Assembly (NCBI GenBank): GCA_015709595.1
Contig: CP054178.1
Span: 1,617,205-1,681,204 of the forward strand
Source of the DNA: Phycisphaeraceae bacterium
GTDB taxonomy: Bacteria > Planctomycetota > Phycisphaerae > Phycisphaerales > SM1A02
Length of the DNA: 64,000 bases
Direction of reading: 5' to 3'
Below are positions 5,915-45,276 of this stretch, one piece after another. The notes beneath the pieces are model-generated. The model saw only the letters and a list, made by a program, of their open reading frames with translations. It had not been told where the DNA came from and ran no database searches. How positions within the stretch are numbered: position 1 is the stretch's first letter; the number at the start of each line of letters is the position of its first letter. The translations under genes were made by a program, and so were the position numbers.

Positions 5915-6952
5915 TCATGGGGCGTTCGCCGGGGTTGCGGGTGAACCGAGCACGCCGCGCAGCCGCCCGTCGTGCTCCGCCAGCAGCGTTCGGGCCGTGC
6001 CCAGGTCCACGCCCAGGCGCTCCATCACGAGCGCGGCCTTGAGTTCGCCCCGCGCCTCGTCGAGCGCGGCGGCGGCCTCGACGCGCGTCAGCCGCGGATT
6101 CAACTCGATCAGGATGCGCATCGCCCGGTCGCGCAGTTTGTCGTTGGTGGCCCGCAGGTCCACCATCAGGTTGCCCCACGTCTTGCCCAGATGCACGAAG
6201 CACGAGGTGGTGATGATGTTGAGCGCGATCTTGGTGGCGGTGCCCGCCTTGAGCCGCGTGGAGCCGGTGAGCAGCTCCGCCCCGGTGTCGAGCACGATCA
6301 GGTGGTCGCATGCCTGGGGCGCGGCTCGACGCACGCAGGTGAGCAGCCCGGTCATGGCGGTTGATGCGGGCGTCTGCATGTCGGGAGTCAGCGGCGCAGG
6401 CGTCTGTGGCACAGGCGTCAGTGGCGCAGGCGTCCCGCCTGTGGTCACATGGGCGTCCCCGCCCGCGGACAACCTCTTGGCCAGCGTCAGCGCCCCCAGC
6501 ACATAGGGCGTGGTGCCCCCCGCAGCGATGCCCAGCACGGTGTCACGGGGCGAGAGGGCCAGGATCTCCAGCTGCTCGCGCGCCCCATCCGGATCATCCT
6601 CGCGCGACTCGGACGACCGCCTCAGCGAGGCGTCGCCCCCGGCGATGATCCCGACGATCTGACCGGGGTCGGCGTTGAAGGTGGGGGGGCACTCGCTGGC
6701 GTCGAGCACGCCCAGCCGCCCGCTGGTGCCAGCGCCGACGTAGATGAGCCGCCCCCCCGCCCGAAGCCGCGGGACAAGGGCGTCGATGAATCGCTCCAGA
6801 TCCGCCGCCGCGTCGCGCAGGGCGTCCAGCGCGGCGTGCTGGTCGTCGATCATCAGGTTGATCATCGCTCTGGTGGGGAGCGCATCGAGGTCCGTCGAGG
6901 CATGATGACGGCGCTCGGTGGAAAGATGGCCGCGATCGGGCGGAAGCGCCAT
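5915..6952 (-). CDS. murQ: N-acetylmuramic acid 6-phosphate etherase
   Basis: MurQ cleaves the lactyl ether of N-acetylmuramic acid 6-phosphate to give GlcNAc-6-phosphate and D-lactate in cell-wall sugar recycling; it is cytoplasmic. The SIS fold is plain: LIYVGAGTSGRLGVLDASEC at about residues 68-87, then GIIAGGD and GIAAGGTTPYV, the conserved HLGKTWGNLMVDL block, and NDKLRDRA. The length is 345 residues against a usual 300. The surplus is a Thr/Pro-rich in-frame insert at about residues 168-197, encoded by a tandem CAGGCGTC repeat (6364-6450), in a loop between core strands. The start at 6952 keeps the usual N-terminal region (STERRHHASTDLDALPTRAM). Confidence 0.92.
   Translation of the reverse strand: MALPPDRGHLSTERRHHASTDLDALPTRAMINLMIDDQHAALDALRDAAADLERFIDALVPRLRAGGRLIYVGAGTSGRLGVLDASECPPTFNADPGQIVGIIAGGDASLRRSSESREDDPDGAREQLEILALSPRDTVLGIAAGGTTPYVLGALTLAKRLSAGGDAHVTTGGTPAPLTPVPQTPAPLTPDMQTPASTAMTGLLTCVRRAAPQACDHLIVLDTGAELLTGSTRLKAGTATKIALNIITTSCFVHLGKTWGNLMVDLRATNDKLRDRAMRILIELNPRLTRVEAAAALDEARGELKAALVMERLGVDLGTARTLLAEHDGRLRGVLGSPATPANAP
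6364..6450. repeat. CAGGCGTC repeat block inserted in murQ
   Basis: At least four CAGGCGTC or GGGCGTC units separated by GTGGC/TGTGGCA. The last forms CGCAGGCG-TCC-CGCCTGTG, an 8-pair hairpin (one wobble) with a TCC loop. The block is a multiple of three in effect and adds a Thr/Pro-rich stretch to MurQ. The same hairpin core recurs near 35590, 38760, 40090, 46565 and 47370. Confidence 0.75.
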
Positions 6953-32905: not shown

Positions 32906-35671
32906 TCAGCGGTGCTTGTTGGCCAGGGAGTCGAACGTCGGCTTGAACCTGGGGCCCCCCAGCGACGGGTCTACCTGCCGCAGGCGGTCGATGCGCGGGC
33001 GGATCTGCTGCGTATTGCGATTCACGCGATCGAGAATCTCGAGCTGGCGCAGTTCCGCGTGCCAGTAGTAGCGATCCCGCGCTTCCTGCCGCGACGCGCT
33101 GATGCGGCGGAACTCGATCATCGCCTCCTCGTACCGCGCCAGCGCGAAGAGGCAATCCGCCCGACCGAACACCGCCTGGAGCACCCCCGGCTGGGCGCGA
33201 AGAGCGTCCTCGTACAATGACAGGGCGCGGTCGAAGACGCCCGCGGCGCGGAAGGCGTCGCCCAGGCGCACCCGCAGCGGGGGCAGGGTTTCCGCCTCCA
33301 GCGGAGCCGTCGCCAGCCACTCGCTCAGCGCCTCGGCGAGCGGCAGCAGGTCCGTCCGCGCGCGGCGGCGGGCCTCGTCCACGCGATCCTCGTCGAGCAG
33401 ACGCTCCACGTCGTCCTGCAGCGAGGCGAGCATCGACGGCGCCACCGAAACGGCCTGGTCCGGAATCGAGTCCAGGAACCGCGTCACTTCCCGCACCACG
33501 TCCGCCGAGCGGCCCAGCGCGTGATACGCCTTGATGCGCAGCGACATCGACTCGCCCAGCAGCCGGCGGTCCTCGAGCGCGCCCAGCGAGTCCAGCCGGG
33601 CGAGCGCCTCGACCGCCCGACCGCCCAGCAGGTGCATTTCGGCCTCGTGAAGCGTGAGCCGGTCGAGGGCGAGCGTCAGCGCTTCGCGTCGGACCGCCTC
33701 GGGCTCGCTCGACTGCGCGTCGCGGATCGCGGCCCGCGATTTCTCGATCTGCGCCAGGGCCGCCTCGAGGCGCGCCGCCCGACGCGATTCGTCCTGCTCC
33801 GCCAGCGCCTCGGCGCGGGCCACCGACGCCAGCATGAAGCGACTGTCGGCCCACGGGGCGCTGCCGGGCGCCACGGCGGCGAAGTGTTCGCGAGCCCCGG
33901 CCAGGTCGCCGCGCTCGTAATGCAGCCGCCCCGCCTCGAAGCGCCATCGCTCCACCGAACGCAGGTTCGGATACCGCTGCAGCAGCATGGACAGCGTGCT
34001 CTCGTACTGCGCGTTCACGTCGGCGGAATCGGGCGCGGCGGCGCGGGCCTCGGCCAGGATTGACGCCGCCAGTTCGATCGCCGTCTCCGCCTGCCGATCG
34101 GTAGGGAACTCACGGGCCACCTGCTCGAAGCGACGGGCGGCGTCGAGCCAGCGGCGTTCGGCGGCCAGGGCGCGGCCCAGCGCGAACGCCGCCATCGCCT
34201 TGGTGGGCTGATCGAGATCGGCGCGGCGAAGGGCCTCCTCCAGCATCTCGACGCCCCTCGCCCGCGTGGAAGCGTCCCGGGCCAGATTCTCCGCCCGCGC
34301 CACCGTGATGATGGGAGGAAGCGCCTCCAGCGGCGCATCCTCTCCCGCGGCATTGGCGAGTCTGGCGAACACCACCGCGCGGGTCGTTTCCACCGGTACG
34401 CCGAGGTCACGCGACAGCAGGTCGGTGTACGACGCGAACGCCTGCGACAGCAGCCGGGCGCGATCCGCGGGCGACGCCTGCGCGGCGAGCTGCCGCCGCA
34501 GCAGGAACCGACGATCCGCGATCAGCACGCGGAAGAAAAAGCCCTCGGCGCCGGTGTATCGCTCCTCGATGGAGTCCAGCGCTTCCAGTCCCGCCGCCGG
34601 TCCGCGCGTGACGGCCCGGTTGAGGGCCGCCCCCATGCGGGCCGCGAAGACATCCGACGGTGTGGCGTCACCATCGCCCGCCACGGCGCGGAAGGAGTCA
34701 TCCGCCTCGTCGAAGCGTCCGAGTCGCGCCAGCGCCAGCCCCGCGTAGAGCCGGGCGCGGGGCCGCAGGAAGCCCTCCAGTTCGCCCACGAGCGGCGCGA
34801 GCAGTTCCGAAGCCAGTTCAAACGCGGCCCGCTGTTCGAGCCGATCGTCAACGTTGAACATCGCGTGCAGATAGGCGCCCACGCCGCGCAGGTACGGCAC
34901 GCGCCGGTCGCGTTCTTCGCGCGACAGTCGCCTTCGCCTGAGCTGCTTCGACAGGTCGGCGGCGTAGCCCGGCTCGCCCTCGAGGTTGATGATGAGTTCC
35001 GCGATGGCCAGTTCCGCCTCCGCCGCGAGGTCGTTGACCTCACGCGCAACGGATCGGGCGCGATCCAGCTGCGCGGGCGTGGGCAGCCCGAACTCCGCGG
35101 TCAGCCACGTGGCCTCGTGCGGATAGAGCAGAAAGAGCAGATCCGCCGCCTGGTCCGCCAGCCACAGGGCGCGGCGTTCGTCGTGGGGATGCGCCGCCAG
35201 CAGCACGCGACGGGCTTCGAGCATCCGTTCGATGCGATCCAATCGCTCGGCGGGCGCGAGCGCCGGGTCGTTGGCGGCCAGACGAAGCGCGGCGATGCGG
35301 TACAGGGCGCTCTCCGACGGGTCGCCGCCGCCCTTCGAGGCGACATAGTGCTCCAGCACTTCCGGCAGCCGGTACTCGCCAAGCCCGCGAAGGAATCGCT
35401 CCTCGTCGAGCTGGTCTTCGAGCGACTGGGCCATGATGGGGTGGGTGAGCGGGACGTTCAGCGCGACGAGCGAGGTAATGATGACCCGCAGCAGGGCGGG
35501 TCGAATCCGCCAGCCCCACCAGTCCTTGTGCGGGTGCGGCGGAGTCGGCATCGTTCGGTTGACCGTTGAGGCCGACCGAACGATCGCAGGCGGGACGCCC
35601 GTGCCACTGATAGGAAGCGAAGGCGGAGCGCCTGCCTCACCAAGCATCGGAATGGTCGCTCGCTTCCTCAC
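32906..35671 (-). CDS. Large exported TPR-like protein, last gene of the VWA-ExbBD operon
   Basis: A 921-residue protein made almost wholly of helical TPR-like repeats (AAFALGRALAAERRWLDAARRFEQVA is one, in two pieces). GTG at 35671 overlaps the ExbD stop in a GTGA junction. Residues 1-40 then contain SGTGVPPAIVRSASTVN, encoded by a dispersed repeat, before the export signal LLRVIITSLVALNVPLTHPIMA at about residues 59-80. An alternative start is ATG at 35551, which would put the signal at the N-terminus of an 881-residue protein. The protein is probably periplasmic and may work as the scaffold or substrate-contacting part of the Exb system. No enzymatic motif. Confidence 0.85.
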   Translation of the reverse strand: MRKRATIPMLGEAGAPPSLPISGTGVPPAIVRSASTVNRTMPTPPHPHKDWWGWRIRPALLRVIITSLVALNVPLTHPIMAQSLEDQLDEERFLRGLGEYRLPEVLEHYVASKGGGDPSESALYRIAALRLAANDPALAPAERLDRIERMLEARRVLLAAHPHDERRALWLADQAADLLFLLYPHEATWLTAEFGLPTPAQLDRARSVAREVNDLAAEAELAIAELIINLEGEPGYAADLSKQLRRRRLSREERDRRVPYLRGVGAYLHAMFNVDDRLEQRAAFELASELLAPLVGELEGFLRPRARLYAGLALARLGRFDEADDSFRAVAGDGDATPSDVFAARMGAALNRAVTRGPAAGLEALDSIEERYTGAEGFFFRVLIADRRFLLRRQLAAQASPADRARLLSQAFASYTDLLSRDLGVPVETTRAVVFARLANAAGEDAPLEALPPIITVARAENLARDASTRARGVEMLEEALRRADLDQPTKAMAAFALGRALAAERRWLDAARRFEQVAREFPTDRQAETAIELAASILAEARAAAPDSADVNAQYESTLSMLLQRYPNLRSVERWRFEAGRLHYERGDLAGAREHFAAVAPGSAPWADSRFMLASVARAEALAEQDESRRAARLEAALAQIEKSRAAIRDAQSSEPEAVRREALTLALDRLTLHEAEMHLLGGRAVEALARLDSLGALEDRRLLGESMSLRIKAYHALGRSADVVREVTRFLDSIPDQAVSVAPSMLASLQDDVERLLDEDRVDEARRRARTDLLPLAEALSEWLATAPLEAETLPPLRVRLGDAFRAAGVFDRALSLYEDALRAQPGVLQAVFGRADCLFALARYEEAMIEFRRISASRQEARDRYYWHAELRQLEILDRVNRNTQQIRPRIDRLRQVDPSLGGPRFKPTFDSLANKHR
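35565..35620. repeat. GTGVPP-type repeat between ExbD and TPR signal peptide
   Basis: TTGAGGCCGACCGAACGATC followed by GCAGGCGGGACGCCCGTGCCACTGAT. The copy at 38738-38792 matches it almost base for base and has the same orientation relative to the operon. The core folds as CGGGCG-TCC-CGCCTG. Confidence 0.8.
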
Positions 35672-36225
35672 TTCGGCTCCGCGAAACGGATGTTGGTGTA
35701 CCGCGCCCGCGCCGCGGCGTTGAAGGCACCCACCGTGTGATCCCAGACGGCGGTGCGGGCCGGTTCAATGATGATCGGGTGGTCCGGCAGGAACAGTCCC
35801 GCGGGGTGGTCCGGGTTGATCTGCCGATCCAGCAGGAAGCGGTGCAGCTCGTCGAACGACGCGGGCTGCGCGAAGGGACCGTCGATGCCCAGCCGGTACT
35901 GGAACCGTCCCGGCCCGGTGGAGAGCACCTGGATGCGCAGCGGTTGTTCATCCAGCTGAAACGGATCACGCTCCGCCTGGCTCTGCAGGTTGCGCGGCAG
36001 GTCGAGTCGGTACACCTCCTCGCCGACGCGGAAATTCGTCGCCACCATGAAATAGATCAGCAGCAGAAACACCACGTCGATCATGGCGGTCAGGTTGAGC
36101 GTGAGGCGCGCCCGGCCTCGCCCGCGCCGCGATCGCGCCGAGCGATGCTCCACCACGTCCTCATCCGGCAGGAAGGCGCGGGCGGCGTCGTGCGGCGCAT
36201 CGGGTTCGAGCGGCGGATCGCTCAC
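35668..36225 (-). CDS. ExbD/TolR-family protein 2
   Basis: A 185-residue proton-channel partner. The basic cytoplasmic start (SARSRRGRGRARLTLNL) is followed by the single membrane helix TAMIDVVFLLLIYFMVAT at about residues 48-65; the Asp in MIDVVF is the proton-carrying Asp of ExbD/TolR. The rest is periplasmic. Both ends are coupled to neighbours: ATG overlaps the stop of ExbD 1 (ATGA), and its own stop overlaps the GTG of the large TPR gene. The periplasmic domain (PLRIQVLSTGPGRFQYRL) is longer than in TolR and less typical. Confidence 0.9.
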   Translation of the reverse strand: MSDPPLEPDAPHDAARAFLPDEDVVEHRSARSRRGRGRARLTLNLTAMIDVVFLLLIYFMVATNFRVGEEVYRLDLPRNLQSQAERDPFQLDEQPLRIQVLSTGPGRFQYRLGIDGPFAQPASFDELHRFLLDRQINPDHPAGLFLPDHPIIIEPARTAVWDHTVGAFNAAARARYTNIRFAEPK

Positions 36226-36704
36226 GAGCCGTCATCCTCCGGAATCACGACCAGGTTCACGCGCGGGCGGGTGTTCACCTGCCCGCTGCGCGACGCCGCC
36301 TCCACCACGGCGCGCATGGCCGGCTCCACCCACTCGTAGTGCGTGGCCCGGTCAGCGCGCAGGTTGACGTTCAGATTGGGGTTGGCGGCGTAGAGCGCCG
36401 CCAGGTGCGCGATCATTCCATCCACGCCGTCCTTCGTGGGCGGAAAGGCCCGGCCTCCAACGCGGTATGACTCGATCTCCGACGAGCCGCGCGACCGCGG
36501 AACCACGTTGATGACCACCCGTCGATCATCCTCCATGCGGGCCGTCAGCGGGCGCTCCGGCTGGGGCAGGTTGAGATCGACGTGCTCCACCTCCACGATC
36601 TGCGACACCAGCACGAAGAAGACGATAAGCAGAAACGTCACGTCGATCATCGGCGTGAGGTTGGCCTCCATCTCGGCTCGGCCGCGCCGGTAGACCGCGC
36701 TCAC
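36222..36704 (-). CDS. ExbD/TolR-family protein 1
   Basis: A 160-residue ExbD-like protein starting with GTG at 36704. The helix is MIDVTFLLIVFFVLVSQI, with the conserved Asp after PMI, preceded by MEANLTP, a common ExbD start. The periplasmic region ends ATHYEWVEPAMRAVVEAA and RVNLVVIPED in good family form. GTG overlaps the stop of the ExbB gene (GTGA) and its stop overlaps ExbD 2. Two ExbD proteins per ExbB is a recurrent planctomycete arrangement and fits a channel with a heterodimeric D-subunit pair. Confidence 0.92.
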   Translation of the reverse strand: MSAVYRRGRAEMEANLTPMIDVTFLLIVFFVLVSQIVEVEHVDLNLPQPERPLTARMEDDRRVVINVVPRSRGSSEIESYRVGGRAFPPTKDGVDGMIAHLAALYAANPNLNVNLRADRATHYEWVEPAMRAVVEAASRSGQVNTRPRVNLVVIPEDDGS

Positions 36705-37516
36705 GACCTTGGCTCCGAGGGGGGCTTGGCGCCGCGCGACCTGGGCCGGAACTGGTTGAGCAGGTGCTCGGCGGTGTGCGTGGCCTCGGTGGTCAAGGCG
36801 TCGATGCGGTTGCGCACCACGGCGTAGCCCGCCAGGGCGGGAATGGCCACGATCAGCCCCCAGAAGGTCGTCACCAGCGCGGTGCCGATGCCGCTGGCGA
36901 GCTGGATCGGGTCCGCCGCCCCGCCCGCGATGACGATGGCCCGGAAGGCCAGGATCATGCCATACACCGTGCCGAACAGCCCGATCATCGGGGCCACCTG
37001 GCCCAGCACGTTGAGGTACTCGATGCGCCGCAGGCGGATGGTGGTGTGCTCGTCGGAGGCCAGCTCCAGCCCGCGGATCATGGCGGAGTAGCCGTGGCTG
37101 GCTTCGTTCAGTCCCGCGTTGATGACAGTGCTGAAGTAGCTGGCGTCGCGCGCCGTGAGCGCGATGGCGTCCTTGAAGCGGCCTTCCTTCAGGTGGCGCG
37201 TCACCTCCTCCACCACGCCGTCGGGCACGATCGCCTTGCGCTGGTTGGTGAGCGCCATGTGACCGATCAGGCCGATCGAGACCATCGAGAGCGCCAGCAG
37301 AAACCAGATGATCATGCTGCCGAGCAGCTCGATGGAGCGTTCGCCGGTGCGTGCGTCGGTGTGGGCGGAGTAGAAGAACACGCTGGCGAAGCTCTGCGCC
37401 GACGGCGCGGCCCGGGCGGCGCCGCCTTCGCCGCCCTCCCCCTGCGCCAGGGCGGGCAGCATCAGCAGGCACACCACACCGACCAGCACTCCCAATCGCA
37501 CCACGGAACGAGTCAT
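36701..37516 (-). CDS. MotA/TolQ/ExbB-type proton channel protein
   Basis: A 271-residue membrane protein. After an N-terminal signal (VVRLGVLVGVVCLLMLPALA) and a short outer stretch come three channel helices: ELLGSMIIWFLLALSMVSIGL, then EYLNVLGQVAPMIGLFGTVYGMI and VTTFWGLIVAIPALAGYAVV. The APMIGLFGTVYGMI and TALVTTFWGL segments are the hallmark of ExbB/TolQ, with the Thr lining the proton path. It pairs with two ExbD proteins. Overlaps: its ATG with the TPR-protein stop (ATGA), its stop with ExbD 1 (GTGA). An N-terminal signal before the first channel helix is common in ExbB of the biopolymer-transport group. Confidence 0.92.
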   Translation of the reverse strand: MTRSVVRLGVLVGVVCLLMLPALAQGEGGEGGAARAAPSAQSFASVFFYSAHTDARTGERSIELLGSMIIWFLLALSMVSIGLIGHMALTNQRKAIVPDGVVEEVTRHLKEGRFKDAIALTARDASYFSTVINAGLNEASHGYSAMIRGLELASDEHTTIRLRRIEYLNVLGQVAPMIGLFGTVYGMILAFRAIVIAGGAADPIQLASGIGTALVTTFWGLIVAIPALAGYAVVRNRIDALTTEATHTAEHLLNQFRPRSRGAKPPSEPRS

Positions 37517-38823
37517 GCCATCTCCTGAGTGGAAAACTGACCAGAAACACTCATCGCGTTGGCGAGGAGCGATCGCGCCCGCTCAGCCAGCGCGGCGTCG
37601 CCGATCTGCTCGGCGATCCTGGCGGCCTCCTCGAACAGGCGCCGCGCCACGTCGGGGTTCTTGAGCGCATCGCGGTAGATCAGTCCGGTTTCGATCAGCC
37701 CCCGCGCCGCGGCCCGCCCGCCGGGGAAGTGGATCACCGCCTGCATGAACGCCACCGCCGCGTCCATCGGACGGCCAAGCCCGTTGAGCGCCAGCCCGCG
37801 GTGCACGAGCAACTGCCCCAGGTCGCGGTCCACCGGATTGCGGACCGCCCGCTCGCACGCCTTGAGGGCCTCGTCGAACTTCGAGGCGGCCAGCAACCGC
37901 TCGATGGATTCGGCGGAGTCGGGATCACCCGGCGTCGCGGGAGGCGAATCGCCCGGCGGCGTTGTGCCGGGGCGCGTGAGCGGGGGGGCGGGCGGCGTCG
38001 CACCTGGCGGCGTCACCACGCGACCCGTCCCGCTGCGCCCGGGTCTCGGCTTGCCCAGGTCGCGCATGGGAATGCCCGACACCGTCGAGCCGGCGCGGTA
38101 GCGCCGCTGCGCATTGTCCTGCTGCACGCGGTCGAACAACGGCCTGATGGCGGCATCCAGCCGGTCGAGCGTCTCACGCACCGTCACGTCACCATCGGGC
38201 GCCGCGGCCTTGCGCCTGGCGCGGTCGATATTCGTGATGGCCTCCGCCGCGCTGTTGAAGGTGGGTTCGTTCAGGCCGCAGGTGGGGACGAGGCGCGTCC
38301 AGACGGGCGAGGGGTCGAGTTCCAGCAGCGCCGCCAGGTTGGACGCCGCCTCGATGTAGTCGCCCGCCAGGTTGTGCGCCGTCGCCAGCCGCGCATGCAG
38401 CCACATGCGCTGCGGCTCGGTGGTCGCCCTGGCGTAGCCCGCCAGGAGTTTGTCCAGCGCGTCTTCGACCTCGCCGCGCGAGAGGAAGCGCTCGGCGTCG
38501 TCCAGCTCGACCAGACCGTCGAAGCGAATGGCGCTGATCGTCGCCGCGTCCACCTGCTTGAGATCACCGCCCGCGTCGGTGAAGAACACCTGTCCGCCTC
38601 GAACGGTCTGGACGCGGATGTCGGCCAGGCGCGTGCCGCCCGCGGTGATGACGTCGGCAAGGGCGCGCGGCGACGGGATGATGCACAGGAGCAGACCCGC
38701 GAGAACGGCGAGACGGATCGGCCTCGCGCGGTCGGCCATTGAGGCCGCCCGAGCGATCGCAGGCAGGACGCCTGCGCCACGGATGCCGGGGAACCGGAAT
38801 GTCATCCATCGTGCAGCGATCAT
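37513..38823 (-). CDS. Exported TPR-like protein, second gene of VWA-ExbBD operon
   Basis: A 436-residue protein from ATG at 38823, which overlaps the VWA stop (ATGA). Residues 10-28 (FRFPGIRGAGVLPAIARAA) come from a GTGVPP-type repeat; the export signal (IRLAVLAGLLLCIIPSPRALA) follows at about 33-53. An alternative start is ATG at 38739, giving 408 residues with a normal signal peptide. Then a region of helical repeats (GEVEDALDKLLAGYARAT, NLAALLEL), a Pro/Thr-rich linker (TPPGATPPAPPLTRPGTTPP), and a C-terminal pair of TPRs (KFDEALKACERAVRNP). Likely periplasmic, linking the VWA protein and the channel. No family name known to me. Confidence 0.8.
   Translation of the reverse strand: MIAARWMTFRFPGIRGAGVLPAIARAASMADRARPIRLAVLAGLLLCIIPSPRALADVITAGGTRLADIRVQTVRGGQVFFTDAGGDLKQVDAATISAIRFDGLVELDDAERFLSRGEVEDALDKLLAGYARATTEPQRMWLHARLATAHNLAGDYIEAASNLAALLELDPSPVWTRLVPTCGLNEPTFNSAAEAITNIDRARRKAAAPDGDVTVRETLDRLDAAIRPLFDRVQQDNAQRRYRAGSTVSGIPMRDLGKPRPGRSGTGRVVTPPGATPPAPPLTRPGTTPPGDSPPATPGDPDSAESIERLLAASKFDEALKACERAVRNPVDRDLGQLLVHRGLALNGLGRPMDAAVAFMQAVIHFPGGRAAARGLIETGLIYRDALKNPDVARRLFEEAARIAEQIGDAALAERARSLLANAMSVSGQFSTQEMA
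38738..38792. repeat. GTGVPP-type repeat at the VWA/TPR junction
   Basis: TTGAGGCCGCCCGAGCGATC followed by GCAGGCAGGACGCCTGCGCCACGGAT, the near twin of the copy at 35565-35620. The core hairpin is GCAGGCG-TCC-TGCCTGC on the minus strand. It lies in frame between the overlap start codon and the signal peptide of the TPR protein. Confidence 0.8.
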
Positions 38824-39953
38824 TGCAGTCCGATCCCCAGTTCGCGTCGGTCGAGAAACTTGTATCCGCGCGGGCCGCCGTGAATCTCCGCGATCTTGCG
38901 CAGCGTGTCCAGCGGATCGGGGTCGAGAAACTGCACGCATTGAATCTGCGTGCGTCGGCGACCCGTGGTCCGATCCACCGGGTTGAGCTGGTCCAGCAGG
39001 TCGAGCAGATCCTTCTGGTCGATCTCGAACACGCCCGCGCCGGTGATGTTGTTGCTCAGCAGAAAGATCACGTCGGGCTTGAACGACAGCCCCTTCTCGA
39101 TGGCCGCCACGGGGTTGGAGCGGCCCGCGGGAATCACCGTGTCCCGCGCCCACTGCAGCACGCGGAGTTTCTCCTCCGCCGTGGCCCGCATCAGTCGCGT
39201 TCCGGGCGGGGCCGTCAGTGCGTCGTTCCTCTGAAAGAACACCACCGCGAACTCCTGGTCCGCCGAGAGGGCCTCGATGGAGCGGGCCAGCTCCTCGATG
39301 ATGATGGGAAGCGTGCCGATCATCGAGCCGGAAGCGTCCACGATGTACACGATCTTGCGCGCGTTGGAGCCGGTCAGCCCCACGAACGACGCGGTGGCCT
39401 CGCGCGGCCTGGGGGCGAACTCCGCCAGCTCGCTGGGCGAGGCCGCGTCGGAGATGACGCTGAGCGGGTCGATCTCCAGCCGCCGCAACTGCTCGGTGAG
39501 CGTGGAGGCGACGGCGTCGGTGGGCCTCTGATCCTGCGCGGCCCGTTCGGTTTCGGGTGAGATGTTGGGGTTCATCAGCGCCAGCGGCTCGTACCGCGGC
39601 TGGTTGAAATCGGCGACGATGAGAACCGGGTCTTCCTCGCGCATCAGCCGAACCGCCGTCACCACCGCGAAGCCCAGCACGATCAGTCCGAGGTGGGCCA
39701 CGAACGAGGTCACCCAGGGCAGCACGCGCTTGAGCCGCCGCTCCGCTTCGGTTTCCGCGCCCAGCTCGCGCAAATGCTCGGCCAGCGCATCGATGGGTTC
39801 AGCCGGGTGCGGCTGGGTCTCCGCCCCGACCGCCGCCCCGTCCGCCCCCGCCTCCGCCGCCAGGTCGCGCTGGGCCTCGATGAGCGCGGCCAGACCCCCG
39901 TCGGCCTCGTCGGCCTCATCGGCCAGGACGGGATGAACATCACCCGCGGTCAC
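38820..39953 (-). CDS. Membrane-anchored VWA-domain protein (TonB-position protein)
   Basis: A 377-residue protein from GTG at 39953. About 75 cytoplasmic residues, rich in Ala, Glu and Asp, precede one membrane helix (WVTSFVAHLGLIVLGFAVVTA, residues 80-100). A periplasmic linker and then a von Willebrand factor A domain follow, beginning at KIVYIVDASGS with a complete MIDAS DxSxS motif (Asp206, Ser208, Ser210), then RSIEALSADQEFAVVFF and KPDVIFLLSNN. The single helix followed by a periplasmic domain is the TonB/TolA plan, but with a metal-dependent ligand-binding VWA domain in place of the TonB C-terminal fold. First gene of the six-gene operon. Upstream TATCCT is a weak -10 candidate. Confidence 0.85.
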   Translation of the reverse strand: MTAGDVHPVLADEADEADGGLAALIEAQRDLAAEAGADGAAVGAETQPHPAEPIDALAEHLRELGAETEAERRLKRVLPWVTSFVAHLGLIVLGFAVVTAVRLMREEDPVLIVADFNQPRYEPLALMNPNISPETERAAQDQRPTDAVASTLTEQLRRLEIDPLSVISDAASPSELAEFAPRPREATASFVGLTGSNARKIVYIVDASGSMIGTLPIIIEELARSIEALSADQEFAVVFFQRNDALTAPPGTRLMRATAEEKLRVLQWARDTVIPAGRSNPVAAIEKGLSFKPDVIFLLSNNITGAGVFEIDQKDLLDLLDQLNPVDRTTGRRRTQIQCVQFLDPDPLDTLRKIAEIHGGPRGYKFLDRRELGIGLQ

Positions 39954-40080: not shown

Positions 40081-40138
40081 ATGGTCACAGGCGGGACGCC
40101 TGTATCACTGACGCCTGCGCCGCTGACCCAGGCGGGTC
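40081..40138. repeat. GTGVPP-type repeat upstream of the DoxX-like gene end
   Basis: Perfect hairpin ACAGGCG-GGA-CGCCTGT, then a further GACGCCTGCGCC unit and ACCCAGGCGGGTC. It lies in the gap between the VWA gene start and the stop of the DoxX-like gene. Confidence 0.75.
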
Positions 40139-40916
40139 AGGACTCCGCCTCGGCCCCTTCGTCGCCGCCCTTGAACAGGAAGCGGTCCAGACTCGCCGCC
40201 CCCGGACCCGTCACGACGATGCCCAGCGACATCACCAGCAGCGACAACTGCAGGTACATGATGGCGTTCTGCACGCCCTTCTCCGGCGACGACGCGAGGG
40301 CGAAGATGTTGAACCCCGCCTCGGTGAGCATCGGCCACGAAGTCAGGTAGAACGCCACGCCCATCACGCCCACCAGCGACAGCGCCCAGAAGCGTGCGAA
40401 CAGCCCGACGAGCACCATCGCCCCGCCCACCAGTTCGGCGATGGTCGCCGCCCAGGCGAGGTACTTGGCGTACGGCTCGCCCGGCGTGCCCTTGAGCATG
40501 GTGGCGATGCCGTACAGCTTGTACGAACGCACCGTTTCACCGGCTGGCGGGGTGGGCGCCTGGCCCGCTCCTGCGTCGCCGCCGCCCTGCTGGGCGCCGG
40601 CATCGGTTCCGCCGCTGGTGGGGGGAACCGTGGGGGGCGTCGTAGGGGGGGTCTGTGTGCCGCCCTCATCCTGCCCGCCGCCGATCGGCTGGCCGCTGCC
40701 GCCCCCCGCGGGATCCTGCGGCGAGTACGAGGCGCGGTGCAGCGTCACGCCCGGCCCGGCCGCCAGCACGCCCAGCTCGCGCAGCGTCCTCAGGTCGTCG
40801 CCGGTGTAGTCCGTCTGCCCCAGTTTGCTCGCTCCGGCGGTGATGAACACCGCCCCCAGCACCAGCCGGGCCAGGAATGGAACGAAGTTGGCGGCGCAGG
40901 ATTGACTGAATGCCAT
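40137..40916 (-). CDS. DoxX-family membrane protein with Pro/Gly-rich loop
   Basis: A 259-residue inner-membrane protein. Helices: FLARLVLGAVFITAGASKL, then after a long outer loop LAWAATIAELVGGAMVLVGL, WALSLVGVMGVAFYLTSWPML and IMYLQLSLLVMSLGIVVTG. The GA(S)KL and AELVGG patterns are DoxX/SURF4-like; such proteins have been tied to redox and thiol metabolism in actinobacteria. The loop between helices 1 and 2 is about 100 residues, rich in Pro, Gly, Thr and Gln (GGGQDEGGTQTPPTTPP), which is far larger than usual. AGGAGG stands 7 bases before ATG 40916, so that start is chosen over ATG 40922 and the longer frame. Function not known. Confidence 0.82.
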   Translation of the reverse strand: MAFSQSCAANFVPFLARLVLGAVFITAGASKLGQTDYTGDDLRTLRELGVLAAGPGVTLHRASYSPQDPAGGGSGQPIGGGQDEGGTQTPPTTPPTVPPTSGGTDAGAQQGGGDAGAGQAPTPPAGETVRSYKLYGIATMLKGTPGEPYAKYLAWAATIAELVGGAMVLVGLFARFWALSLVGVMGVAFYLTSWPMLTEAGFNIFALASSPEKGVQNAIMYLQLSLLVMSLGIVVTGPGAASLDRFLFKGGDEGAEAES

Positions 40917-41063
40917 GACCATGCCTCCTGGAGCCCGATGGGCTACTTCCATGATCCTACCGACGTTCCGCCGCGGAGGAACCAGCGAACCTCGCGGGGG
41001 GAAGGTCGGCGACGGACTGGCCCGATCGGGTTTCCTGACGATAATCCTATCGGCTACTCTCCC

Positions 41064-41466: not shown

Positions 41467-44400
41467 TCACCCCCCGCCCCGCCTCGGCGGAAACGACAGG
41501 TCCGGGTGCGGCGGCGCGGGCGGCACCTCCACCGGCTGCTCGGCGATCTTGCGCTTCAGGAACTCGATGGCGGCCTTGAGCTGCGCATCCTCGCCCCGGA
41601 AGGTCGCGTGGGGCGGGTTGTCCACCACGATGTCCGGGTCGACGCCGTGGCCTTCGATGAGCCATTCGCCCTCCGGGCCGTACACGCCGAACTCGGCGGC
41701 GGTGGCGATGCCGCGGTCCACCAGCACGTTGCTGCTGGTGAGCCAGATTTCGCCGCCCCACGTGCGCGTGCCGATGATCGTGCCCAGCCCGAGGCGGCGG
41801 ATGCCTTCGGTGATGGCCTCGCCGTCCGAGGCGGTGCGCTCGTTGCACAGGATCACGATGTGCCCGCGGAAGGCGTACTGCATGTTCCAGTAGGGTTCGC
41901 CCGCGCGGCCCTGCCAGTAGAACCACGCCTTGCGCAGCAGTTCGGAGAGAATCCACGAGTCGATGTTGCCACCCCCGTTGTGGCGCACATCGATGACCAG
42001 CCCCTTGCGGTCGAAGACGGGGTAGAAGTCGCGCGTCCATTGCGCGATGTCGCCCGAGCCCATCGCCCGCAGGTGGACGTAGCCCATGTCGCCTTCGCCA
42101 TCGCGCTCGACGATGAGCCGGCGTTCGTACTCCCACTCGGTGTAGCGCAGCCCGTCCTCCGCGCCCGGCGAGATGGGCGTGACGATGACCTGTCGCTCCT
42201 CCTCCGTCTCGCCGTCGCGCAGGTGCAGCAGCACCTGCTTGCCGGCCTGGTTCATGAGTAACTCGCCGAGGTCGCGTGCTTCGAGCACGGCGCGGCCGTT
42301 GAGGCGGATGATGACGTCGCCCGGCGCGATGTCCAGCCCGGGTCTGGCGAGGGGGGATCGCTCGCCGGGGTACTCGGGGTCGGTCTGGTGGATGTGCTGG
42401 ATGACGTAGCCGCCCGCCGCCGGGTCGCGGACAAGCCGCGCGCCGAGGGCGGCGGGTTCGGCTCCGCGGGGGGCGGAGCGCTGGTCGCCCCCCCGCACGA
42501 AGGTGTGCAGGGCGGAGAGTTCGGCGACCATCTGGGCGATCACGTCGCTCAGCTCGGCGCGGGTGCGCACGCGATCGACGAGGGGTCGGTACTTCTCCAG
42601 CATGGCGGTCCAGTCCACGCCGTGCATGCCGCGGTCGTAGAAGTAATCACGCTCCAGGCGCCAGGCCTCGGTGAACATCTGCCGCCATTCATCGCGCGGG
42701 TCGACGGTGAAGCCCCAGCCGGAGAGGTTGACGCGGGAGTCGTTCATGTCCGCGGGTCCGCCGCCGATGTCGATGATGTGCATGGCGTCGCCCTTGCGGA
42801 CGAGGGCCTTCCTGCGGTCCATCGAGTACTCGCCGAAGGAAATGTCCGACGCGATGGTTTTCGTTTCGATCTTCTTGTTGTTGAAGTCGAGCGCCACGAG
42901 ATGGCGCGTCGATCCGCGGCCGGAGCCCTCGCGGGTGACGAAGAGCAGCCGCTTGTCGGTGGCGAAGAGGTTGGAGTAGTCGCCGTTGGGCACGGGCACT
43001 TCGTAGAGTCGATCGGCGAGCCCGTCGGCGTCGATGATGACGGGCCTGGCGGCGTCGGGCTTCTCGCTCTTCGCGGGCTTGTCGCCCGGCGGGGTTGTCG
43101 GCGCTTCCGCGCCGGCGGGGGCATCCGGTGCCGCGGGCGGCTCGCTCGGCGTCGGTTCGGTCGCGGGGGGGTTCGTCGTGGGCGGGGCCGACTTCTTCGG
43201 CTCGTCCTTCTTCGCCGCGTCGAGCTCGGTGTCGGGGTCGAAGGGGAACTTGAGTCCCTTCACGAGCGCCAGCGCGTAGATCTTCGTCGTTCGCTCGAAG
43301 TGCGGCTTGGGCGCACGGAAGCCCCATGGGCTGGGCACGCTCGATTGCAGGTGCCGCTCGCTGAGGAAGTAGAGCCACTGGCCGTCGGGCGTCCACGCGG
43401 GGGAGTGGCTGATCTGCCGGTCGGTGGTCAGCGCCAGCCGCGTGCCGTCCTCCACGTTCCGCACGATGATCTGGGGGTGCGAGTTCCTCGCGGGGCGCAC
43501 GTACGCCAGCCACGTGCTGTCGGGCGACCAGGTGAGATTGGAGAAGGCGTCATCCCATTCGAGCCGGTCAATCTCGGTGTTCTCGCGCGTCTCGACGTTG
43601 TGCAGAAAGAGCCGCAGGTTCTTGTCGTGGTGAGCGATCCACCTGCCGTCGGGCGAGGGGATTCCCTCCCAGCGCAGCACCACGCCGTCGCTGGAAATCT
43701 GCTGCTTCTCGCCCATGCCGTTGGCGGGATGGGTCCAGAACTCGACCTCGCCCGATTCATCGGAGAGGGTGAGCAGCGTGGCGCCATCCGGCAGGAAGCG
43801 TGCATCGCGGTGCCGGACGGTGCGGTCGCGCGTGACCTCGATGAGCCGGCCTTGCTTGGCGGGAGCGACATAGATCTGACCGCGCGCGGTCATCACCACG
43901 CGGTCGCCGTCCGGCGAGAGGTGCGAACTGGTCACCCAGGAGAGCGGGTCGCCGACCCACTTCTCGCGGGTCTGATCGAAGTCCGATCCCAGGGCGATGG
44001 TCAGCCGGGTGACGCCGTCCGCCGCGATGTCGTAGCGCCACAGGTCCGCGCCGACCTGGTAGGTGATGCGCCCGTTCGTGAGGTCGGGTGAGAAGATATC
44101 GAAGCCCTCGTGGCGCGTGTGCTGCCGCGGATCCGTGCCGTCGGGCTTCATGGACCAGAGGTTCATGACGCCATCGCGGTCGGAGGCGAAGTAGATGCGG
44201 CCGTTCCAGAGCATGGGATCCTTGCTGGTTCCCGCGTAGTCGGCGGTCAGGTTGACGGCCTCCTCGCCCTCCACGCCCGACCAGCGCCAGATCTGCTCGA
44301 CGGTGCCGCCCTTGTATCGCTTGGTGTGGCTGCCGTTGAAGGGAAGTCGGGTGAAGAACACGGCCCCGCTGTCGGGATCGATGACGCCGTCCGCCGCCTG

Positions 44401-44913
44401 GGCGAGCGGGAGGATGGTCTTCTCACCCGTGGCCGGGTCGAGCGTGAGGAGCTGCCAGTTGGGCAAGCCGGAGTGCGCCCGCGAGGCGTAGAGGATTCTG
44501 CCGTCCGCCGTCCACCCGCACACGCGGGCGGTGCGGCCTTCCCAGGTGCGCCGCTGAGGCGCCCCGCCGGTCAGCGGCATGGTGTAGACCTCGGTGGGTC
44601 CGTCGTACTGGGCGCTGAAGGCGACGGTGGCTCCATCGGGCGAGATGGCGGGGTGCGACTCCTCGCCCAGGTGCGTGGTGAGCCGCCGGGCCGTGTCCTC
44701 GCCGGCGCGCAGCACCCACAGGTCGCCCTCGGCGCAGAACACGGTCACATCGCCGCGGACGGCGGGCATGCGGTAGTAGCCCTGCGGGGTGGGCTGAGGC
44801 GCTGGCTGGGCCTGCCGGGCCACGGCGTGAACAGGCGCCGCGGTTGAGGTCAACCCAGCGAGGGCCAGCATGGTGAGCACGACGAACGAGAGAGCGGCGG
44901 AGCGGGTTCGCAC
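41467..44913 (-). CDS. Exported tricorn-like S41 peptidase
   Basis: A 1148-residue protein from GTG at 44913 (GGAGA six bases upstream), with a signal peptide VRTRSAALSFVVLTMLALAG and cleavage near ...PVHA. Then two beta-propellers with WD/Asp-like strands (SHPAISPDGATVAFSAQYDG, DPMLWNGRIYFASDRDG), a Pro/Ala/Lys-rich linker near 570-640, a tricorn core domain, a PDZ-like region (APGDVIIRLNGRAVLEARD), and the S41 catalytic domain with NERTASDGEAITEGIRRLGL, in which Ser is the nucleophile, and RHNGGGNIDSW. This is the domain order of tricorn protease homologues, but exported. A GCTCCGC-GGGGG-GCGGAGC repeat lies in frame at 42461-42479. Likely degrades peptides in the periplasm. Confidence 0.92.
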   Translation of the reverse strand: MRTRSAALSFVVLTMLALAGLTSTAAPVHAVARQAQPAPQPTPQGYYRMPAVRGDVTVFCAEGDLWVLRAGEDTARRLTTHLGEESHPAISPDGATVAFSAQYDGPTEVYTMPLTGGAPQRRTWEGRTARVCGWTADGRILYASRAHSGLPNWQLLTLDPATGEKTILPLAQAADGVIDPDSGAVFFTRLPFNGSHTKRYKGGTVEQIWRWSGVEGEEAVNLTADYAGTSKDPMLWNGRIYFASDRDGVMNLWSMKPDGTDPRQHTRHEGFDIFSPDLTNGRITYQVGADLWRYDIAADGVTRLTIALGSDFDQTREKWVGDPLSWVTSSHLSPDGDRVVMTARGQIYVAPAKQGRLIEVTRDRTVRHRDARFLPDGATLLTLSDESGEVEFWTHPANGMGEKQQISSDGVVLRWEGIPSPDGRWIAHHDKNLRLFLHNVETRENTEIDRLEWDDAFSNLTWSPDSTWLAYVRPARNSHPQIIVRNVEDGTRLALTTDRQISHSPAWTPDGQWLYFLSERHLQSSVPSPWGFRAPKPHFERTTKIYALALVKGLKFPFDPDTELDAAKKDEPKKSAPPTTNPPATEPTPSEPPAAPDAPAGAEAPTTPPGDKPAKSEKPDAARPVIIDADGLADRLYEVPVPNGDYSNLFATDKRLLFVTREGSGRGSTRHLVALDFNNKKIETKTIASDISFGEYSMDRRKALVRKGDAMHIIDIGGGPADMNDSRVNLSGWGFTVDPRDEWRQMFTEAWRLERDYFYDRGMHGVDWTAMLEKYRPLVDRVRTRAELSDVIAQMVAELSALHTFVRGGDQRSAPRGAEPAALGARLVRDPAAGGYVIQHIHQTDPEYPGERSPLARPGLDIAPGDVIIRLNGRAVLEARDLGELLMNQAGKQVLLHLRDGETEEERQVIVTPISPGAEDGLRYTEWEYERRLIVERDGEGDMGYVHLRAMGSGDIAQWTRDFYPVFDRKGLVIDVRHNGGGNIDSWILSELLRKAWFYWQGRAGEPYWNMQYAFRGHIVILCNERTASDGEAITEGIRRLGLGTIIGTRTWGGEIWLTSSNVLVDRGIATAAEFGVYGPEGEWLIEGHGVDPDIVVDNPPHATFRGEDAQLKAAIEFLKRKIAEQPVEVPPAPPHPDLSFPPRRGGG
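42461..42479. repeat. GCTCCGC hairpin in the tricorn-like gene
   Basis: GCTCCGC-GGGGG-GCGGAGC, a perfect 7-pair stem, encoding SAPRGAEP between the GDQR and ALGARL segments. It is related in form to the GGCTC hairpins at 45066 and 55113. Confidence 0.5.
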
Positions 44914-45276
44914 GGGCGTCTCCGAAGAAGGCGAAGGGTCGGGGGCGAAAGGCCGGGGGGGCGGACCACGACCCGCCAGCCGCGGTGAATGCGGATCATA
45001 CCGATTCACGGGCGCGGGGTGACGGCTTGCGGCCTGGGGTTGCGAGCCGAAAGCCCCTCACGTGCCACGGCTCTGGGAGCCGTGCGCGCGGTCCGTGGCC
45101 TTCGAGCGCGGGGACGCCCTGCGTGCCGCGTCCACTTCACGAGATTCCGCTTGCGCCGCCGGATGTCTCCCGCGCGCCTGTACGGCCGCACGGTCGTGGC
45201 ACACGATCGAATGACCGACGGCCTGCCCTCCGTCAGAGGGCTGGCTCCGCGTGCAGACGCCGTCACGCCAAGACCC
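44914..45276. other. Intergenic region upstream of the tricorn-like gene
   Basis: About 360 bases without a gene. Features: the inverted repeat GTGAAT (44985-44990) and ATTCAC (45004-45009) around TATGAT on the minus strand (44996-45001), which could be promoter plus operator for the tricorn-like gene; and the perfect hairpin CACGGCTC-TGG-GAGCCGTG at 45066-45084. Confidence 0.5.
45066..45084. repeat. GGCTC-type three-base-loop hairpin
   Basis: CACGGCTC-TGG-GAGCCGTG, an 8-pair perfect stem with a three-base loop. It has the same plan as CTCGGCTC-TCC-GAGCCGAG at 55113-55131. Confidence 0.65.

Follow-up and report, generated by a model that had tools for sequence, protein, structure and literature searches.

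In the window analysed here, a stretch of 64,000 nucleotides (positions 1617205-1681204 of the 3.84 Mb single-contig genome of a Phycisphaeraceae bacterium), six open reading frames (ORFs) lie at 32906-39953 on the minus strand in the order VWA, TPR1, ExbB, ExbD, ExbD, TPR2. We propose, with a probability of about 0.78, that this operon encodes a proton-motive-force-driven motor of the cell envelope in which the VWA protein stands in place of TonB/TolA. The proposal is built on gene content and order, the coupling and channel residues, the two ExbD classes and VWA-TPR2 gene fusions found in relatives.

Analysis of the ORFs, Pfam searches (MotA_ExbB, two ExbD and TPR domains) and AlphaFold2 (AF2) models bore out the six minus-strand genes, their order and their contents as given in an initial annotation of this DNA. 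The first gene (38820..39953) encodes a force-transducer candidate of 377 aa, whose VWA domain scored under the Pfam sequence cut-off and was recognized by its AF2 fold. It is followed by TPR1 (37513..38823), predicted to be exported, by an ExbB/TolQ-like proton channel subunit (36701..37516; PF01618, E 4e-25), by the TolR-like ExbD1 (36222..36704; PF02472, E 2.8e-15) and ExbD2 (35668..36225; PF02472, E 1.6e-13), each with the membrane Asp, and by TPR2 (32906..35671), a large TPR solenoid likewise predicted to be exported.

The VWA protein consists of a non-conserved cytoplasmic N-terminus of ∼78 aa, a single transmembrane (TM) helix, a disordered linker and the VWA domain (residues ∼187-377). 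Its AF2 model (predicted local distance difference test, pLDDT, 83.5) matched VWA folds in the PDB, and model residues ∼61-135 (∼105-180 of the protein) were mostly of low pLDDT with a few short helices, in keeping with the disordered linker of about 100 residues expected after such a helix. The DxSxS sequence of the metal ion-dependent adhesion site (MIDAS) was unbroken, as initially annotated (DASGS, residues 206-210, at 39324..39338 on the minus strand; D206, S208 and S210), and alignment assigned Ser279 to the MIDAS Thr position and Asn301, rather than an Asp, to the fifth position. When 43 VWA proteins were aligned, their TM helix showed one invariant residue, a His (43/43), preceded in 39 of them by a Ser at position H-4; in the window this pair is SFVAH, residues 83-87 (39693..39707, minus strand). 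As Ser16 and His20 of Escherichia coli TonB, the motor-contact pair, are equally spaced, the Ser-x3-His of the VWA helix has the spacing of the TonB/TolA motor contact. A hydrophobic SxxxH stretch was found in 116 of 139 VWA homologues versus 120 of 2403 other long ORFs, and Trp was common on both sides of the His (at H-7 and at H+12, each in 32/43). Moreover, the linker carries a hydrophobic stretch at the place of the TonB ‘motor box’. The combination of a single S-x3-H helix, a linker and a periplasmic globular domain supports the placement of the VWA protein at the TonB/TolA position, which had been suggested by the initial annotation.

The motor subunits carried the residues of a proton channel throughout the sample. 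The channel Thr motif GxxGT was present in all 60 ExbBs, while a second Thr motif, as formulated here, matched 32 of the 60. The membrane Asp, annotated from the outset in both ExbDs of the window, was found in 80/80 sampled ExbDs (74 by a strict motif and the other six by eye). ExbD1 and ExbD2 fell into separate classes across genomes, with 8 label changes as against 31.6 after shuffling, and ExbD2 thus appears to be an orthologous class distinct from ExbD1.

Conservation of the gene order in relatives had been proposed as a check by the initial annotation, and the order was indeed kept across the class. In a set of 41 loci, comprising the window and 40 from other places that were picked from the hit list for spread and not at random, the full VWA-TPR1-ExbB-ExbD-ExbD-TPR2 arrangement occurred in 14; TPR1 alone was missing in 15 (16 with L039, which has VWA-ExbB-ExbD-ExbD-TPR2), a recognizable TPR2 was missing in two, and the remainder were partial, fused, unlinked or contained other VWA proteins. 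A named sample, which shares some genomes with the 41 loci, had a VWA gene together with ExbB and two ExbDs in 42 of 59 classified loci, four of the 59 being too short to judge. Distant relatives show the whole gene set again, alike in order and in class, so the arrangement is not due to chance, and the comparison shows VWA, ExbB, two ExbDs and TPR2 as the core of the system, with TPR1 as an accessory part. Variants included tandem VWA genes, two or three, in several loci and, on an Isosphaeraceae contig (L136), an ExbB-ExbD-ExbD-VWA order with the VWA gene last. Two loci of another family (L040 and L041, family f5) contained a VWA-TPR1 pair with no ExbBD or TPR2 adjoining. A search with the VWA protein matched 338 of the 397 genomes searched, all from one class, inferred to be Phycisphaerae because the named matches are mostly Phycisphaerae and Phycisphaerales assemblies; this figure was rejected as an operon count since the search also picks up other VWA proteins, and five loci (L067, L114, L121, L133 and L138) had VWA ORFs with neither an SxxxH helix nor linked ExbBD. 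Carriage on plasmids was rejected, the plasmid matches being distant generic ExbBs only (<60% identity).

Gene fusions link the VWA protein to TPR2. In a sister family (f2), eleven ORFs (L054, L070, L190-L197 and L105) combined the SxxxH helix and the VWA domain with ∼520-625 further residues, and one of the twelve ORFs inspected (L198) was without the long C-terminal part. The fusions occur in at least ten genomes, L105 being a named contig whose genome is possibly among the others. When used as an alignment, the C-terminal parts matched TPR2 with 99.7% probability (hhalign, E 8e-27) and did not match TPR1; searches with single sequences gave weak matches. As both proteins are thereby joined in a single chain, VWA and TPR2 probably cooperate in the same compartment, with TPR2 as the probable direct periplasmic partner, which supports the TPR partner for VWA expected in the initial annotation. 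A signal-like N-terminus with a hydrophobic segment was seen in 29/31 TPR1 and 51/53 TPR2 proteins and lipoboxes were few, so that both are probably exported and soluble. The AF2 model of TPR1 (pLDDT 87) showed a small beta-barrel followed by a TPR-like solenoid, for which a fold search returned generic TPR solenoids only.

Three observations weigh against the proposed motor. Of the published SHLS motif, neither the Leu nor the second Ser was conserved in the 43 aligned VWA proteins, in which H+7 is mostly Ala or Gly and H+11 mostly Val or Thr. The AF2 model assigned no motor-box strand, although the sequence PVLIVADF (residues 109-116) looks strand-like. Finally, ExbBD genes were not adjacent to the VWA-TPR2 fusion loci of the sister family; some of the fusion-bearing genomes have ExbB-ExbD-ExbD trios elsewhere, and L208 is an example of such an unlinked trio in this family.

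The host genome contains six ExbB-family genes. The gene order of the window operon recurs in a second one at ∼1849384-1856061 (positions 4385-11062 of L155, which covers genome positions 1845000-1859000). Its genes encode, in turn, a VWA protein that has the S-x3-H pair, an exported protein resembling TPR1, ExbB, two ExbDs and a large TPR2-like protein, the last with a relationship to TPR2 of 99.6%; the kinship of its TPR1-like protein to TPR1 was judged from position and layout, not from a score. Its ExbB fell outside the clade of the window operon and grouped with sister-family ExbBs, and two such VWA systems thus coexist in this host. A further long ORF lies downstream of the second operon and has an apparent counterpart in another locus (L207). 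The host also has an ExbB-ExbD-TonB locus and another in which ExbB is accompanied by an OmpA-domain protein, this second locus being probably MotAB. At 1.274 Mb (positions 1815-10925 of L153, genome 1267000-1281000), TPR-ExbB-ExbD genes precede an ORF of 1521 residues that contains a TM helix and whose propeller-like repeats make it a beta-propeller candidate from its sequence, and this locus may be a Tol-like system.

For docking, force transmission and stoichiometry we infer the following scheme. ExbB pentamers with the ExbD1/ExbD2 pair would form an inner-membrane motor, on the outside of which the S-x3-H helix would dock the VWA protein in the fashion of TonB/TolA. The motor would then pull or move the periplasmic VWA domain, and the force could be handed on to the exported TPR2 solenoid, and to TPR1 where present, which probably connect to peptidoglycan or outer-membrane components.

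Its presence in nearly all genomes of the host's family, and its wide distribution through the class, suggest that the system serves the general upkeep of the envelope and not a niche. Each of the 32 family genomes listed had VWA homologues (28 at E <1e-20), whereas in 31 genomes, a different draw from the same family, TolB_N was absent from all, as it was from the host genome, TonB_C was found in 14, and OmpA/Pal-type domains were found in all 31. These counts, along with a weak match of TPR2 to YbgF/CpoB, would fit a motor that does the job of Tol-Pal, namely constriction and stability of the outer membrane at division, with TPR1 and TPR2 as CpoB-like or scaffold partners. However, the OmpA matches include MotB-type proteins, the operon has neither a TolB nor a Pal gene, and the TPR-ExbB-ExbD locus at 1.274 Mb could be the Tol-like system instead, so that we regard this role as possible but not probable; since it concerns the role, it is compatible with the proposed motor mechanism. 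We consider it rather doubtful that, in this class of planctomycetes, the VWA motor goes as far as replacing Tol-Pal as the chief housekeeping transducer of force in the envelope, with a TPR solenoid taking the part of the TolB-Pal cycle.

A second alternative is that the motor powers a surface-contact or gliding machine. In the Agl-Glt machinery of Myxococcus, a single TolQ-like subunit is combined with two of the TolR type and with TPR proteins, and its VWA adhesin is CglB, an outer-membrane protein. The operon recalls these parts in its one ExbB, two distinct ExbDs, and TPR and VWA components, and gliding is likewise suggested by Williams-Jones et al. (2025; PMC12204202). However, the VWA protein sits on an inner-membrane TM helix whereas CglB is in the outer membrane, no Glt-type outer-membrane or FHA/TonB-like proteins were recognized in the operon, and the system is very widespread in the class, all of which makes a gliding function unlikely. 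An energizer of outer-membrane import for particular nutrients or polymers, as in the Ton system, would account for the helix signature and the motor, but neither TonB_C nor a TonB-dependent receptor was seen in the operon and the host has its separate ExbB-ExbD-TonB locus, so that such a role seems improbable. A chaperone or regulatory function of the VWA protein towards the motor, e.g. in its assembly, is least credible. VWA domains frequently serve as assembly factors, but none of the results obtained here favours this reading, and a transducer requires just such an invariant His in its TM helix and such a helix-linker-globular layout.

The junctions of the operon had been described as five 4-base overlaps, and ATGA or GTGA was indeed read from the sequence at all five. 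Two of the corresponding starts, however, are doubtful because REP-like (repetitive extragenic palindromic) repeats lie within the 5' parts of both TPR ORFs, and translation may now begin elsewhere than at the VWA/TPR1 and ExbD2/TPR2 overlaps. The palindrome GGCRCAGGCGTCCYGCCTG has 85 copies in the genome, compared with one match for a reversed control pattern, and occurs in the window at 6429, 35587-35605, 38760-38778, 40088-40106 and 47366. The copies at 38760..38778 and 35587..35605 (minus strand) lie within 30-40 codons of the annotated TPR1 and TPR2 starts, respectively, ahead of the signal peptides, and would add spurious N-terminal residues to the annotated proteins. In most relatives compared, the TPR1 signal peptide directly follows the overlapping ATG; the simplest reading is that insertion of the repeat split the ancestral overlap from the present TPR1 start, perhaps the ATG at 38736. 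For TPR2, the same separation is suspected because its signal peptide comes late. A further copy (40088..40106, minus strand) is located upstream of the operon, between the VWA gene and a DoxX-family gene (40137-40952), beyond which a Tricorn-type protease homologue is encoded at 41467-45009, both on the minus strand.

The initial annotation had regarded the system as undescribed, a claim that was not upheld, since membrane-tethered vWA force transducers of the Planctomycetes–Verrucomicrobia–Chlamydiae (PVC) bacteria, including planctomycetes, were published in 2025 (Williams-Jones et al., Mol Biol Evol msaf138, PMC12204202); on the mechanism, the annotation's guess and the published view coincide. 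These authors describe vWA genes beside TPR genes, a tolQ-like gene and a heterologous pair of tolR-like genes, with no function reported, and AlphaFold3 models in which the vWA helix occupies the TonB/TolA site of the motor via a conserved His. The window operon showed four of five features of their first family (TMH-tethered vWA), namely the SHLS motif in its S-x3-H half only, the linker, the vWA fold and the synteny; the fifth feature is the motor-box strand. Like that family, it combines a C-terminal vWA domain with a helix of TonB/TolA type that has kept the His, next to TPR, one tolQ-like and two tolR-like genes; unlike it, SHLS is reduced to its Ser and His, the gene order starts with VWA instead of having it ‘downstream’ of the motor genes, there are two TPR genes, a paralogous operon is present in the same genome and VWA-TPR2 fusions occur in a sister family. 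The second family (TPH-vWA), with the proton Asp on the vWA helix and no ExbD/TolR nearby, differs from the SxxxH helix and two ExbDs found here.

Tol-Pal shares with the operon the channel and TolR-like subunits, the helix signature of the transducer and a TPR protein; the operon, however, lacks the TolA C-terminal domain, TolB and Pal, and has two TolR-like proteins and a VWA domain instead. Membership in Tol-Pal was therefore rejected, no TolB or Pal domains being found in the operon and no TolB_N in the 31 family genomes. Membership in TonB-ExbB-ExbD, which has the same motor and helix signature, was likewise rejected, as the VWA protein has no TonB_C and the one TonB_C match of the genome lies elsewhere, in the separate TonB locus. 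The Zorya defence motor was rejected as well, with a weak ExbB-ZorA match (E 0.002) and only a generic TPR model for the other proteins. Agl-Glt resembles the operon in pairing a single TolQ-like subunit with two of the TolR type and in having TPR proteins alongside a VWA protein, but here the VWA domain is carried by an inner-membrane transducer, and no Glt or adhesion-complex genes were recognized in the operon, without a Glt-specific search being made. vWA force transducers are so far known only from sequence and structure prediction, and a version that is very widespread in one bacterial class, duplicated and sometimes fused separates core from accessory parts and names TPR2 as the probable direct partner. 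To the published description the present analysis adds the absence of TolB and the patchy occurrence of TonB in the host's family sample, the VWA-first order, the class-wide spread, the paralogous operon, the frequent lack of TPR1 and the VWA-TPR2 fusions.

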